DNA from: Bacteroidales bacterium
GTDB taxonomy: Bacteria > Bacteroidota > Bacteroidia > Bacteroidales > FEN-979
DNA: 64,000 nt
Assembly (NCBI GenBank): GCA_030681475.1
Contig: JAUXWT010000057.1
Span: forward strand, 36,729 to 100,728
Direction of reading: 5' to 3'
Positions 8,533-47,006 of this stretch are shown here, one piece after another. The notes beneath the pieces are model-generated. The model was not told the DNA's origin, made no database searches, and saw only the letters and a program-made list of their open reading frames with translations. Positions within the stretch are counted from its first letter, which is position 1. Every line of letters begins with the position of its first letter. A program made the position numbers and the translations under genes.

Positions 8533-8582
8533 TTTGACGTATTATTACGTTATTGTAAAATACAACGTATATTTGCGTCAAA
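8533..8582. promoter_or_regulatory. Candidate ArsR operator: nested dyad TTTGACG..TACGTT..AACGTA..CGTCAAA
   Basis: Arms 8533-8539/8576-8582 and 8546-8551/8564-8569 share the same dyad centre (8557.5), immediately upstream of arsR. Confidence 0.6.
8568..8575 (+). promoter_or_regulatory. Bacteroidota -7 box (TATATTTG) of the arsR-hgcAB-acr3 operon
   Basis: Matches TAnnTTTG; 25 nt before arsR ATG and inside the dyad. Confidence 0.55.
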
Positions 8583-8599
8583 TAATATTTGTCTGATTT

Positions 8600-8956
8600 A
8601 TGGCGTACGCGAAAACGGAGCTCTTTGATCCAGAATTAAATGACACTGCTGTACTGTTTAAAGCCCTTGCACATCCGGCACGTCTTGCCATTTTAAAATA
8701 TCTTGCGGAGATAAAAGTTTGTATGACCGGTGATATTTCCGATGAGTTGCCCTTAAGCCGGACGACCATTAATCAGCACCTGAAGGAGTTGAAAAATGCA
8801 GGGTTGATCCAGGGGACTGTCGATGGGGTCAAGGTTAATTATTGTCTCAATCCGGAAAAGATCGGGGATGTTGTGAATATGGTCAGTTGTTTTTTCGGTG
8901 ACATTATGGGAGAAGGGGAGTTCAGATGTGAGGAGGGTGACAGGGTAACAGGGTGA
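8600..8956 (+). CDS. arsR: ArsR/SmtB-family winged-helix transcriptional regulator
   Basis: ALAHPARLAILKYLAEIKVCMTGDISDELPLSRTTINQHLKELKNAGLIQGTVDGVKVNYCL: ArsR wHTH; adjacent to arsC. Confidence 0.92.
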   Translation: MAYAKTELFDPELNDTAVLFKALAHPARLAILKYLAEIKVCMTGDISDELPLSRTTINQHLKELKNAGLIQGTVDGVKVNYCLNPEKIGDVVNMVSCFFGDIMGEGEFRCEEGDRVTG

Positions 8957-9000
8957 CAGGGTAACAGGGTGACAGGGTAACAGGGTGACAGGGTAACAGG
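8937..9000 (+). repeat. Tandem array A: 8 x 8 bp (gtgacagg/gtaacagg alternating)
   Basis: Exact 64 bp array; contains the arsR stop codon (8954-8956). Confidence 0.95.
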
Positions 9001-9076: not shown

Positions 9077-9517
9077 ATGAATATACTTATACTTTGCACG
9101 GGCAACTCGTGCAGGAGCCAGATGGCCGAGGGGTTTTTAAGAGCTTTCGATGCACGACTGGAGGTTTTTTCGGCCGGAACACATCCGGCGGCGCAGTCCA
9201 ATCCTAACGCAGTGGCGGTGATGAAAGAGGAAGGTATTGACATCGCCGGAAACAAACCAAAGAATGTCGATATTTTTATTTCAGAACCCTTTGATTATGT
9301 AATCACGGTTTGTGACGGGGCAAAGGAGGTCTGCCCAGTCTTTACCGGAAATGTTAAAAACCGGCTGCATATCGGATTCGATGATCCCGCTGATGCGACA
9401 GGAACATTTGAGGAGGTAATTGCTGTATATCGCAGGGTCAGGGATGAAATCAAGGCGGGTTTTTACAGCTTCTATGTTGATCAAATCAAAGGTGAGGTTG
9501 ATAAGGGGGTGATGTGA
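9077..9517 (+). CDS. arsC: Arsenate reductase ArsC (low-MW protein tyrosine phosphatase/thioredoxin-type family)
   Basis: MNILILCTGNSCRSQMAEGFLR (CxxNSCRS loop), SAGTHPA, downstream DPADATGT. Confidence 0.92.
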   Translation: MNILILCTGNSCRSQMAEGFLRAFDARLEVFSAGTHPAAQSNPNAVAVMKEEGIDIAGNKPKNVDIFISEPFDYVITVCDGAKEVCPVFTGNVKNRLHIGFDDPADATGTFEEVIAVYRRVRDEIKAGFYSFYVDQIKGEVDKGVM

Positions 9518-9601
9518 CAAGGTGACAAGGTGACAAGGTGACAAGGTGACAAGGTGACAAGGTGACAAGGTAGCGAGGTAGCGAGGTAGCGAGGTAGCGA
9601 A
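9514..9601 (+). repeat. Tandem array B: 7 x gtgacaag followed by 4 x gtagcgag (last one gtagcgaa)
   Basis: 88 bp, strict 8 bp period; first unit contains the arsC stop codon (9515-9517). Confidence 0.95.
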
Positions 9602-9620: not shown

Positions 9621-9911
9621 ATGACAGAAAAAAAGACAGACAAATTAAATGGCGATCGTCAAAACGATCAGGGTGATTGCGGTTGTGAAGGCAACTGTTG
9701 TCCGCCGAAAAGAAACAACACTCTTGCAAAGATAATTTTTGGGATAATCCTTTTATCTGCGATTGGAATCATTGCAGTAAAGCTGTACGTTAAACCTGCC
9801 CATACGACAAACAAAGAGGCATGTTGCCCCCCGGGATCTTCCGGGGAGTGCGATACCACAATGACGACAACCTGCGATACGGCAAAAAGTTCATCCTGTT
9901 GTCCTAAATGA
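9621..9911 (+). CDS. Small Cys-rich single-pass membrane protein
   Basis: 96 aa: DCGCEGNCCPPKRNN - TM (IIFGIILLSAIGIIAVKLY) - EACCPPGSSGECDTTMTTTCDTAKSSSCCPK; 7 bp before the next gene. Confidence 0.75.
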   Translation: MTEKKTDKLNGDRQNDQGDCGCEGNCCPPKRNNTLAKIIFGIILLSAIGIIAVKLYVKPAHTTNKEACCPPGSSGECDTTMTTTCDTAKSSSCCPK

Positions 9912-9918
9912 GAGCCAG

Positions 9919-10620
9919 ATGGATACATGGATAAATCAGGTATTAAGCAGTGACCATGCAGCCATTTCGGTACTGATCGCCCTGTTTCTGCTGGGGTTGA
10001 TCAGTGTTGTTACATGCGGATGTAATTTCGCAGTGATCGGAGTGGTTGCAGGTTATACAGGAGCAAGCGCTTCACCCTCAAATAGCAAAACCGTATTCCT
10101 GAGGGGATTTTCCTTCCTTGTTGGGACGGTTATTTCAATGGCTGTAATCGGGTTGCTGTTCGGATATGCAGGAAAGTTTGTCAGCAATTCTCTGGGAAAT
10201 TACTGGAAAATAGCAGCAGGGTTGATTGCCATTATTTTCGGACTATATTCCATGGATCTGATCCCCTTTAAATTGCCGGGTTTGACAATCAAACCAGTTA
10301 ATTCAGGGCAAAACATTTTTTCAGCTATCATTTTTGGCCTGACCGTCGGAGGGTTGTCCACTGCGTTAAATTCATGCTGTAACCCGATATTTCCGGTCGT
10401 TCTGGCTACATCGTTCGTAAAGGGAAGCGCCATCTGGGGCTTGACGATGCTTACTTCATTTGCCCTCGGGTATGGAATTCCGCTTGCAGCCATGATGGTA
10501 GGGTTCAGCCTGGGCCTGGGGAAGATTTCAAAGACATTGTCTGTTATCGGCGCCATTGCAAAATATGCCGGAGGAATTGCACTGGTTGCCCTGGGGTTTT
10601 ATTTCCTTTTAACCATATAG
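9919..10620 (+). CDS. CcdA/DsbD-like membrane protein, possibly ArsG-type organoarsenical permease
   Basis: ~6 TM, VVTCGCNFAVIG and ALNSCCNPIFPVV cysteine pairs in paired TM segments typical of the CcdA/DsbD superfamily. Confidence 0.75.
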   Translation: MDTWINQVLSSDHAAISVLIALFLLGLISVVTCGCNFAVIGVVAGYTGASASPSNSKTVFLRGFSFLVGTVISMAVIGLLFGYAGKFVSNSLGNYWKIAAGLIAIIFGLYSMDLIPFKLPGLTIKPVNSGQNIFSAIIFGLTVGGLSTALNSCCNPIFPVVLATSFVKGSAIWGLTMLTSFALGYGIPLAAMMVGFSLGLGKISKTLSVIGAIAKYAGGIALVALGFYFLLTI

Positions 10621-10626
10621 CACCAA

Positions 10627-11664
10627 ATGGCTGAAAAATTTATTACCGGTTATCTTGATTCAGATGAGGGCAAAGTTCCACAGATCTCCACAGCATGGAG
10701 CAATCATGATCGCTGGAGTACGATCAAGGTGAGGTGGTCGGTCGGGAGAATGAACTACAGGATTCAGCCCGGACTCTATGCTGTTGGAATCCCGGACAGG
10801 AATTCCCACATTTTTGTAACAGGAAACTATAAACTCAGCTTCGACCATCTCAGGCGGGCGCTGACCGGTACGCACTCATGGATACTGGTCATCGATACCA
10901 AGGGGATCAATGTATGGTGTGCGGCCGGAAAAGGTACTTTTGGCACAAAGGAGTTAGTGCGTCGTATCCGGATACATCATGTCGCCCAATTGGTTGACCA
11001 CCGGAAAATCATTTTACCTCAACTCAGCGCAACCGGTGTGGCGGCACATGAGGTGAAACGAATGACCGGGTTTTCCATCATATATGGACCGGTCAGGGCA
11101 AACGATATCAAGGCATTTCTTGAAGCCGGTCTAAAGGCCAGCGATTCCATGCGACGAATTTCATTCCCCATCGTTGAACGGTTGAAGGTAATCCCGGTCG
11201 ATGTTTTTTACGGAAAATATTACATGCTGGTTATCCCGGCGGTCTTTCTTTTGCTATCGGGGTTCACCCCTAGCGGGTTTTCGGTTGACCAAACATTAAA
11301 TACGGGGTGGAAGAGTTCAGTAAACCTGTTTGCCGGTTATTTGTCAGGGTGTGTCCTGGTCCCGGTGTTGTTACCCTGGATCCCTTTTCGAAGTTTTTCG
11401 ATGAAAGGATTAGTAATTGGCTGGCTTGTTGCTGGTCTCCTTGCCATATCAGGCACCATGGGCGCGGGTATCGTCGAGGTAGTCTCATGGTTCCTGATGA
11501 TGGGAGGATTATCGTCGTTCATGGCCATGAATTTCACAGGGTCCTCCACCTTTACTTCGCTTTCGGGGGTTCAAAAGGAGATGAAAAAAGCGTTACCGGT
11601 TCAAATTACAATGGTATCATTGGGTGTTGCCGGTTGGATTATTACCAGATTTCTTGAACAATGA
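10627..11664 (+). CDS. hgcA: HgcA, mercury-methylation corrinoid protein
   Basis: RWSVGRMNYRIQPGLYAVG, ILVIDTKGINVWCAAGKGTFGTKELVRRI (cap helix, Cys98), PQLSATGVAAHEV, GFSIIYGPVRANDIKAFL, then multi-TM C-terminal domain ending MNFTGSSTFTSLSGVQKEM. Confidence 0.95.
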   Translation: MAEKFITGYLDSDEGKVPQISTAWSNHDRWSTIKVRWSVGRMNYRIQPGLYAVGIPDRNSHIFVTGNYKLSFDHLRRALTGTHSWILVIDTKGINVWCAAGKGTFGTKELVRRIRIHHVAQLVDHRKIILPQLSATGVAAHEVKRMTGFSIIYGPVRANDIKAFLEAGLKASDSMRRISFPIVERLKVIPVDVFYGKYYMLVIPAVFLLLSGFTPSGFSVDQTLNTGWKSSVNLFAGYLSGCVLVPVLLPWIPFRSFSMKGLVIGWLVAGLLAISGTMGAGIVEVVSWFLMMGGLSSFMAMNFTGSSTFTSLSGVQKEMKKALPVQITMVSLGVAGWIITRFLEQ

Positions 11665-11957
11665 GAGAATTGACTTACCTGCCTGGCGTTGTTACGCTGT
11701 TGCTTGATGTTGAAAAGTGCAACGGTTGCCGGATGTGTCTGATGGTTTGCCCGCATGCCGTTTTTGTGATGGAGAACAAAAGAGCTGTTATCCGCCACAA
11801 GGATTTTTGCATGGAGTGCGGCGCATGCGCAAAAAATTGCCCGGAAGGAGCCATCACTGTACAATCAGGCGTTGGGTGTGCCTCCGGAATCATCAATGGG
11901 TTGCTGCGCAGAACGGAGCCGAGTTGTGATTGTGATTCCGATGGAGGTTGTTGCTGA
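11661..11957 (+). CDS. hgcB: HgcB, 2x[4Fe-4S] ferredoxin of mercury methylation
   Basis: Overlaps hgcA stop by 4 bp; CNGCRMCLMVCP and CMECGACAKNCP motifs, VGCASGIINGLL, C-terminal Cys-Cys. Confidence 0.95.
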   Translation: MRELTYLPGVVTLLLDVEKCNGCRMCLMVCPHAVFVMENKRAVIRHKDFCMECGACAKNCPEGAITVQSGVGCASGIINGLLRRTEPSCDCDSDGGCC

Positions 11958-12019
11958 TTTGATGATTTGATGATTTGATGATTTGATGATTTGATGATTT
12001 GATGATTTGATGATTTGAT
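11956..12019 (+). repeat. Tandem array C: 8 x gatttgat
   Basis: Exact 64 bp array beginning inside the hgcB stop codon (11955-11957). Confidence 0.95.
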
Positions 12020-12022
12020 AAA

Positions 12023-12382
12023 ATGAAGGTTATGAGAAATGACAGGGAGAATCTTATTGTAAAATTATCGCTTGAATTTGCGCTTGAGATTATTAAGTTT
12101 TCAGAATTGCTTGAAGAAAAAAAGAAGTATGTTGTCGCCAGGCAAATATTAAAGTCAGGTACATCGATTGGTGCAAATGTCAGGGAGGCACAGAATGCAG
12201 AAAGTAAAATTGATTTTATCCATAAAATGAAAATCGCCGCAAAAGAGGCTGATGAAACTGAATACTGGTTGATTCTCTGCGAAATGTCAAAAAACTATCC
12301 ATTTAACAAGGACTTAAAAGCAAATCTTCAATCAATAATCAAAATAATATCAAAAATAATCAGCACCTCCAAATCAGGTTAA
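12023..12382 (+). CDS. Four-helix bundle protein (23S rRNA IVS/S23 family)
   Basis: [16 protein letters not shown]...[45 protein letters not shown]: family signature. Confidence 0.9.
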
Positions 12383-12425
12383 TCCTTGCCTAATCTTCAA
12401 ATCTCCAAATTTTCAAATCAATTCT

Positions 12426-13478
12426 ATGAAAACCCGATTAAAGTTTCTCGACCGTTATCTGACTTTATGGATATTTCTCGCCATGGCCATCGGCGTATTC
12501 TGGGGTTGGTTATTTCCCGGTATTGCCGGGTTCTGGAATGCCCTGTCGTCGGGAACAACGAATATTCCCATCGCCATCGGGCTTATCGTGATGATGTACC
12601 CGCCATTGGCCAAAGTAAAATACGAGGAGTTGGGTGATGTGTTTAAAAACACCAAAATTCTGGGATTATCACTGGTTCAGAACTGGCTCATCGGTCCGGT
12701 ACTGATGTTCCTGCTGGCAATAATTTTCCTGCAGTTCAATATCGATTACATGTACGGATTGATTCTTATCGGTCTGGCGAGATGTATCGCCATGGTAATT
12801 GTGTGGAACGAACTCGCAAAAGGGGACACAGAGTATTGTGCCGGGCTGGTTGCCTTCAATTCCATCTTCCAGGTACTCCTTTTTTCGGTTTACGCTTATC
12901 TTTTTATCGCGGTATTTCCGGCCTGGTTCGGGCTGCCTACCAACAGCGCCGTGGAGGCGATCACCATTAAACAGATCGCTGAAAGCGTTTTTATCTACCT
13001 GGGGATCCCTTTCCTGGCTGGATTTCTGACACGATTTATCCTCATTCGTGTCAAGAGCAAGGTTTGGTACCACACGAAATTTGTTCCCAAAATCAGTCCG
13101 CTAACCTTGATTGCCCTTTTGTTTACGATCCTGGTGATGTTTTCGCTGAAGGGTGAGTATATCGTAAAAATCCCGTTTGATGTTGTAAGGATCGCTATCC
13201 CGCTTACGATCTATTTTCTGATCATGTTCATGCTTTCATTCTATATGAGTAAGAAGGCCGGTGCGACTTATGAACAATCGGCTACTCTGTCGTTTACGGC
13301 GGCCAGCAACAATTTCGAATTGGCAATCGCAGTTGCAATCGCAGTTTTCGGCATCGACTCCGGTGAGGCCTTTGCAGCAGTGATCGGGCCGCTGGTCGAA
13401 GTTCCTGTTCTTATATCTCTGGTGAGCGTTGCATTCTGGTTAAAGAAAAAATGGTGGAAAGGAGATCCTTCCATTTGA
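12426..13478 (+). CDS. acr3: ACR3-family arsenite efflux permease
   Basis: 350 aa, 10 [91 protein letters not shown]. Confidence 0.95.
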
Positions 13479-29501: not shown

Positions 29502-30074
29502 ATGGCCCGATTAGCAATTTTCGCCTCCGGGAATGGTTCCAATGCGCAACGGATTACTGAATATTTTACAGGACATCCGACCATTTCGATAAACCTTATT
29601 TTATCCAATCGGCCAGATGCATATGTACTTCATCGAGCTGAAGGCCTCGGGATCCCGGCCAGGGTCTTCAACAGGACTACATTATATGAAACCAGCGATA
29701 TTCCTGCATTGCTCATGAAATACCAAATCGATTTTATTATCCTGGCCGGTTTTCTCTGGCTGATACCGCAAAACCTGTTAACACTTTACACCGGACGGAT
29801 TATCAACATTCACCCTGCCCTACTTCCGAAATACGGGGGAAAAGGAATGTACGGCATGAAGGTACATGAAGCTGTGATTGCTTCCGGCGAGCACGAATCG
29901 GGGATTACAGTTCATTACGTGGATGAGAATTATGATGAGGGGCAGATCATTTTCCAGGCAAAATGCATTGTATCTGAGGCGGATACACCGGAGAGCCTGG
30001 CGTCAAGGATTCATGAATTAGAATACAGGTATTTTCCGGAGGTGATTGAGAAGGTCGTGACAAGTGACAAGTGA
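29502..30074 (+). CDS. purN: Phosphoribosylglycinamide formyltransferase
   Basis: MARLAIFASGNGSNAQRITEYF, INIHPALLPKYGGKGMYG; start revised to 29502. Confidence 0.94.
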   Translation: MARLAIFASGNGSNAQRITEYFTGHPTISINLILSNRPDAYVLHRAEGLGIPARVFNRTTLYETSDIPALLMKYQIDFIILAGFLWLIPQNLLTLYTGRIINIHPALLPKYGGKGMYGMKVHEAVIASGEHESGITVHYVDENYDEGQIIFQAKCIVSEADTPESLASRIHELEYRYFPEVIEKVVTSDK

Positions 30075-30098
30075 CAAGTGACAAGTGACAAGTGACGG
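30057..30098 (+). repeat. Tandem array D: 5 x gtgacaa (+1 degenerate), 7 bp period
   Basis: Overlaps the last codons and stop of purN (VVTSDK*). Confidence 0.93.
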
Positions 30099-46931: not shown

Positions 46932-46939
46932 TGAAAGTC

Positions 46940-47006
46940 AAAATGCAAAATGCAAAATGCAAAATGCAATTTTTTTCGCTGCCTCGCTACCTCGCTACCT
47001 CGCTAC
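46940..47006. repeat. Tandem array F: 4 x aaaatgc (46940-46967) and 3 x ctcgctac (46983-47006)
   Basis: ctcgctac is the reverse complement of the gtagcgag unit of array B. Confidence 0.92.

Follow-up and report, generated by a model that had tools for sequence, protein, structure and literature searches.

An hgcAB gene pair set in an apparent arsenic-type operon and preceded by a conserved cysteine-rich/CcdA-like membrane protein pair in a Bacteroidales genome

Within the 64,000-nucleotide stretch of Bacteroidales DNA analysed here (the window), we identify an hgcAB pair that we regard, with a probability of roughly 0.8, as genuine and intact, and as supplying the methylation step in a metal(loid) detoxification operon under ArsR control. 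The genes lie on the same strand in the order arsR-arsC-CysTM (orf96)-ccdA-like-hgcA-hgcB-(IVP)-acr3, and this apparent arsenic-operon setting, with its conserved accessory genes, was absent from the original prediction, which had dealt with the hgcAB pair. The neurotoxin methylmercury reaches food webs through microbes that carry hgcAB, and the organism may fairly be considered a candidate methylmercury producer.

The 345 aa open reading frame in which the original prediction had recognized INVWCAAGKGTFGT is present at 10627-11664 (+), and its NVWCAAGK cap-helix motif spans residues 95-102 (10909-10932), with Cys98 encoded at 10918-10920, where the motif had been placed. Its identification as hgcA, encoding a membrane corrinoid protein, draws on profile, fold and tree evidence. 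The protein scores 430.7 bits (E = 3.4e-129) against the curated NCBIfam equivalog NF040863 (cut-off 275), and the product of the following gene scores 123.5 bits (E = 2.4e-36) against the NCBIfam HgcB model NF040864 (cut-off 99), E-values that exclude a chance origin of the matches. Both proteins hence exceed their curated cut-offs, while the look-alike models fall below theirs: HgcA reaches 204.6 bits with the HgcAB-like fusion model NF043039 (cut-off 285) and 63.5 bits with the CFeSP gamma model PRK04165 (cut-off 306), so that the HgcA profile score lies far above that for CFeSP, the reverse of the refuting condition set in the original prediction. An AlphaFold2 model of HgcA (mean pLDDT 77) combines a domain of corrinoid type with one of long helices, and the multi-TM C-terminal half that had been predicted is borne out by a series of such helices between about residues 182 and 343 (182-195/197-210, 220-251, 257-275, 282-306 and 312-343), an arrangement that fits a TM domain of about five helices; cap-helix residues 94-103, including Cys98, are modelled at low confidence (pLDDT < 50). 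A fold search of this model against the PDB ranks the HgcAB model 9a0b first (E=2e-22; 324 aligned columns, 40% identity), ahead of the corrinoid domains of CFeSP structures. Residue mapping equates Cys98 with Cys93 of ND132 HgcA, at an offset of five, and Thr65, Val96 and Ala158 with the ND132 B12-contact residues Thr60, Val91 and Ala153, while Ser71 stands where ND132 has Thr66, a conservative change.

The hgcB gene (11661..11957, +) shares 4 bp (ATGA) with the end of hgcA and encodes a 98 aa 2x[4Fe-4S] ferredoxin with two CxxCxxCxxxC motifs and a Cys-Cys end, as originally described. Among its cysteines (20, 23, 26, 30, 50, 53, 56, 60, 73, 89, 91, 97 and 98), the eight cluster ligands (20/23/26/30 and 50/53/56/60) share their numbering with ND132 HgcB. 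Mutagenesis has shown that full activity needs the cap-helix cysteine (ND132 Cys93), HgcB Cys73 and at least one C-terminal cysteine, and the HgcB tail cysteines have been proposed as carriers of Hg(II) and CH3Hg+ (PMC7305189). Mapping onto ND132 indicates that these methylation-essential residues are kept, as HgcA Cys98 and as HgcB Cys73 and Cys97/Cys98. The evidence supports the 345 aa and 98 aa proteins as genuine HgcA and HgcB. The reading of the longer protein as another corrinoid protein, either CFeSP/CdhD or a member of the HgcAB-like fusion family, can point to the weak PRK04165 and NF043039 matches and to a corrinoid fold common with CFeSP, but it is vanishingly improbable and is ruled out by the profile scores: both matches lie far below their cut-offs whereas NF040863 exceeds its own by 156 bits, hgcA is unfused and retains a full TM domain, the NVWCAAGK cysteine is absent from CFeSP, an hgcB with Cys73 and a CC tail comes next, and the fusion form (L095) is a separate protein that has the ferredoxin domain in the same chain. 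The genome holds a single hgcA copy, and since a PF03599 search of the genome matches hgcA alone, no separate CFeSP/CdhD is detected.

The source genome (4.24 Mb, 98.67% complete, 0.48% contaminated) belongs to a family in which hgcA recurs: matches above the cut-off were obtained for 25 of the family's 43 genomes, for 19 of the 294 in the order and for 2 of the 388 in the class. An HgcA tree of 108 rows puts the window sequence with same-genus sequences (4 rows, SH-aLRT 97), and this group nests in a 56-row Bacteroidota/Ignavibacteriota clade (SH-aLRT 99), so that the proposed phylogenetic check places the window protein inside the HgcA clade of these phyla. According to the accessible part of McDaniel et al. 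(2020; PMC7438021), Bacteroidetes and Ignavibacteria HgcAB are monophyletic. Given the agreement of the tree with that report and the frequency of hgcA in the family, the hgcAB pair is of known type, and hgcAB carriers in the Bacteroidota are already published. Several variants were observed in related genomes. One genome (G388) carries two full hgcAB loci, L052 and L059, on separate contigs (C3 and C21), each with a CysTM-ccdA pair; another genome of the order encodes HgcA-like and ferredoxin domains in one chain, of the HgcAB-like fusion type (L095); and one locus (L093) has a shortened hgcA with no hgcB adjoining. Regarding the cofactor, MetH is present in the genome and CobS was not found in a search of the same 98.67% complete assembly, suggesting that the organism is a corrinoid user, probably by salvage. 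A MerB search of the source genome gave no match, and the control genomes were equally without match, which makes the result uninformative.

The apparent first gene of the operon, arsR (8600..8956, +), encodes an ArsR/SmtB-family metalloregulator (NF033788, 66.5 bits; cut-off 55) and is followed by arsC (9077..9517, +), whose product is a thioredoxin-type arsenate reductase-like protein of the LMW phosphatase fold, above the cut-off for PF01451 and with its best NCBIfam match, TIGR02691 at 123 bits, below the cut-off of 174.3. The apparent last gene, acr3 (12426..13478, +), encodes an arsenite efflux permease (TIGR00832, 445.5 bits; cut-off 282.8). Between hgcB and acr3 lies a gene for a four-helix-bundle protein of the 23S rRNA IVP type (12023..12382, +; TIGR02436, 89.8 bits), which occurs in a minority of the compared loci and whose presence is probably incidental. 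Intergenic distances are short in the central part of the operon (CysTM/ccdA-like, 7 bp; ccdA-like/hgcA, 6 bp; hgcA/hgcB, -4 bp), and the spacing and common strand of the genes, with the conserved dyad before arsR, suggest that arsR to acr3 may be co-transcribed. Short tandem arrays of 7-8 bp units were also observed in the window, at 8934-9000, 9514-9600, 11951-12019, 12392-12419, 30057-30096 and 46939-47006; the unit differs from array to array, many arrays begin at or just past a stop codon, four of them fall in gaps of the ars-hgc operon, and they are sporadic among relatives.

The candidate promoter/operator (8533..8582, +) combines an inverted repeat, ACGTA-N4-TACGT, upstream of arsR (the dyad ACGTA-TTAT-TACGT at 8537-8550) with a subsequent Bacteroidetes-type -7 box, TATATTTG, at 8568-8575, which fits what we take to be the Bacteroidetes -7 consensus, TAnnTTTG. 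This block is kept upstream of arsR in relatives, and in one locus (L073) it precedes CysTM, with no arsR found beside hgcAB. The full pattern of dyad and -7 box occurs once in the genome; a scan with the sigma-70 consensus showed no clear excess over shuffled sequences. A promoter block that is both conserved and unique in the genome makes control by ArsR plausible, and the operon may plausibly be repressed by this regulator. The same conservation bears on whether the hgcAB locus might be intact yet silent, or a decaying remnant, as the interrupted hgcA genes in relatives' assemblies (L077, L076 and L092) could suggest; these broken copies come from MAGs and may be assembly errors, however, whereas in the window the hgcA and hgcB frames are complete, the catalytic residues are kept and the promoter dyad is conserved, all of which make such a state very improbable.

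Two accessory genes separate arsC from hgcA. The first, CysTM (9621..9911, +), encodes a cysteine-rich protein of 96 aa with a CxCxxxCC N-terminal head, one predicted TM helix at about residues 35-53 and a cysteine-rich tail ending in CCPK. Most related loci have a homologue at this position, and these homologues repeat the succession of cysteine-rich head, TM helix and cysteine-rich tail, usually ending near CC; no match to CysTM was found in NCBIfam or Pfam. The second gene, ccdA-like (9919..10620, +), has its stop 6 bp before hgcA and encodes a membrane protein of 233 aa with the motifs CGCN (33-36) and CCNP (153-156). It matches PF02683 at 39.9 bits (cut-off 27.1) and the profile of CcdA (5vkv) with E=2.8e-5, and 5vkv is also the top result of a fold search (E=6.4e-3) based on a low-confidence AlphaFold2 model (mean pLDDT 63). 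Its homologues carry CxCN (or SCCN) and mostly CCNP, and the protein gives no significant NCBIfam match; judged by sequence, it forms a distinct subfamily of the CcdA/DsbD superfamily. An ArsG identity was considered and rejected, there being no NF040495 match up to E=10 and a weak hhalign match (probability 79%). The accessible part of one source describes the superfamily of CcdA-type proteins as taking in both exporters and electron carriers (PMC4608589).

The association of this pair with hgcA extends well beyond the window. Of the 25 full-length loci of the family, 16 have the ccdA-like gene immediately before hgcA, and the same holds for 9 of the 14 loci that come from the order's other families; these counts are minima owing to contig ends. 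A genome-wide profile search identified 19 ccdA-like carriers among the family's 43 genomes, 15 among the 294 of the order and one among the 388 of the class, the last being the window's own genome. Within the order, hgcA is present in 13 of 15 carriers versus 6 of 279 non-carriers (Fisher p = 2e-16), and within the family in 17 of 19 versus 9 of 24 (p = 6e-4), both tests ignoring relatedness. Further afield, the ccdA-like gene directly precedes hgcA in a Planctomycetota locus (L123), in a delta-proteobacterial MAG (L163), where arsM lies upstream, and in a Zixibacteria MAG (L171), and in a second planctomycete (L131) it lies between hgcB and acr3; in all four cases a cysteine-rich ORF with one TM helix is found just upstream of it. 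The CysTM forms of L123, L131 and L171 are long and contain an additional domain of some 120 aa, for which a thioredoxin-like reading made by eye was dropped because Pfam returned nothing. An independent-pairs test on the HgcA tree detected no significant association of the ccdA-like gene with ars genes. Our search of the open-access literature found no description of the CysTM/ccdA-like pair in connection with hgcA or arsM.

Loci that hold one part of the system in place of the whole indicate that the accessory pair is neither strictly required for HgcAB nor exclusive to it. The window's genus provides a set of such loci at one syntenic site, with the full ars set in the window and L071, CysTM-ccdA-hgcAB only in L067 and L073, and arsR-arsC-hgcAB-acr3 in L063, where the CysTM-ccdA pair is missing; L068 is another example of hgcAB in a relative that has no ccdA-like gene. 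Conversely, the pair occurs in the absence of hgcAB (L197, L198, L214 and L215), mostly with arsM or an ArsC-ArsM fusion on one side and acr3 on the other. The genomes G405 and G574, which lack hgcAB, show arsR, the ArsC-ArsM fusion, CysTM, ccdA-like and acr3; G401, likewise, has arsM, CysTM, a frameshifted ccdA-like gene and acr3, and G516 has arsR, arsM, CysTM and ccdA-like. Nearly all loci seen couple the pair with hgcAB or arsM, the exceptions being the second copy in G616 (L216) and locus L199 of G402, in which CysTM and ccdA-like are followed by acr3 and hgcAB lies on another contig. The accessory pair hence tends to go with SAM-dependent metal(loid) methylation, among loci collected mostly via hgcA or via the ccdA-like profile within one order, which do not amount to an unbiased survey. 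Two further features of these loci were recorded. ArsC-ArsM fusions, of which our literature search found no description, appear as single ORFs of about 410-436 aa, in which an arsenate reductase is joined to an arsenite methyltransferase, in the ars/hgc operons of relatives (L197:6839-8146(-), L215:1987-3216(-), L057 and L066), and in the same-genus locus L199 an ArsF-ArsG pair, from families of aromatic arsenical resistance, lies a few genes upstream of CysTM-ccdA-acr3 (L199:1454-2583).

The position of hgcAB between arsR/arsC and acr3 raises the question of whether HgcAB serves mainly arsenic, methylating or handling As(III) or a methylarsenical within the ars operon, with methylmercury as a side product. 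In related operons lacking hgcAB, it is arsM or ArsC-ArsM that the accessory pair and acr3 come after, and the ND132 hgcAB has been described as ArsR-controlled and responsive to arsenic (Gionfriddo, 2023, as cited in the accessible part of PMC10349881). On the other hand, ArsC-ArsM and hgcAB adjoin in L057 and L066, indicating that hgcAB is not a simple substitute for arsM; linear Hg(II) coordination suits the HgcB CC tail; and many phyla have hgcAB with no ars genes in the scanned neighbourhood. We therefore consider a mainly arsenic-directed role rather improbable. The alternative that CysTM-ccdA is an arsenic-operon unit, and that hgcAB became inserted between it and acr3 in the absence of any functional coupling, fares better. 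The empty site of G405 (L197), in which arsR, ArsC-ArsM and CysTM are followed by ccdA-like and then directly by acr3, speaks for such an insertion. Nevertheless, the pair stays with hgcAB in loci where no arsC, arsM or acr3 was detected within a few kb (L067, L073, L082, L088 and L090), and it precedes hgcA in the Planctomycetota, delta-proteobacterial and Zixibacteria loci mentioned above, so that mere neighbourhood, while a serious minority possibility, appears unlikely.

In the mechanism that we favour, with hgcAB as the methylation step of an ArsR-controlled detoxification operon, HgcA would bind a salvaged corrinoid via Cys98, HgcB would donate electrons to bring the cofactor to Co(I), and the Co(I) cofactor would take a methyl group from SAM, as in ND132 HgcAB, where SAM methylates the cob(I) centre (PMC11588087). 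The methyl group would then pass to Hg(II) held by HgcB Cys73/Cys97/Cys98, yielding methylmercury, so that the window HgcAB may methylate mercury in vivo, while arsenic would be dealt with by acr3 and arsC. The juxtaposition of a CcdA-type protein and a cysteine-rich, membrane-anchored protein suggests a thiol-reducing relay or the hand-over of a thiol-bound product. The most likely role of the two proteins together is that of a thiol relay in the membrane, which would either keep cysteine ligands reduced or pass a methylated metal(loid) across the membrane. More tentatively, and against the odds as we see them, CysTM and the divergent CcdA could be a partner module devoted to SAM-dependent metal(loid) methylation and common to HgcAB and ArsM operons in several phyla. 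Such a module might supply reduced thiols to the methylating enzyme or, alternatively, carry methylmercury or trivalent methylarsenicals off that enzyme and across the membrane. We know of no gene for the transfer of methylmercury across the membrane from the methylating enzyme, nor of an established natural function of HgcAB or exit route of methylmercury from the cell. With a candidate accessory pair that accompanies hgcAB or arsM, and with loci in nature that hold only one part, the link to arsenic becomes directly testable, and this natural deletion series, including the syntenic set within one genus, makes the handling of methylated products testable as well.

Compared with known systems, the window HgcAB shares with that of ND132 (Pseudodesulfovibrio mercurii, D. 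desulfuricans) the gene order, the corrinoid and TM domains, the corrinoid-ligating cysteine, and the HgcB cluster cysteines, Cys73 and C-terminal cysteine pair, and differs from it in belonging to the Bacteroidota/Ignavibacteriota clade, in its ars operon, in the CcdA-like/Cys-rich pair and in having Ser71 for Thr66. An ArsR-family gene upstream of hgcA is likewise common to both, to judge from the accessible part of the source citing Gionfriddo (2023; cited in PMC10349881), but the ND132 regulator is reported to lie just upstream of hgcAB, whereas the window arsR is three genes away, separated by arsC, CysTM and ccdA-like. The CcdA-like protein belongs with the transmembrane thiol-electron carriers CcdA (5vkv) and DsbD and with ArsG (NF040495) by superfamily profile and paired intramembrane cysteines, and stands apart from them by its CxCN/SCCN and CCNP motifs, by its lack of a significant NCBIfam match and by its presence in just one of the 388 class genomes. 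With respect to gene neighbourhood, the accessible part of McDaniel et al. (2020; PMC7438021) reports arsenic resistance genes, among them acr3, arsC, arsR and arsM, flanking hgcAB in diverse putative methylators, a neighbourhood of the kind seen in the window, and in that part of the text we found no mention of the CcdA-like/Cys-rich pair, of empty sites, of the ArsC-ArsM fusion or of the promoter dyad. The occurrence of hgcAB beside ars genes is hence already known, and the CysTM-ccdA unit before hgcA is the less explored part of these operons.
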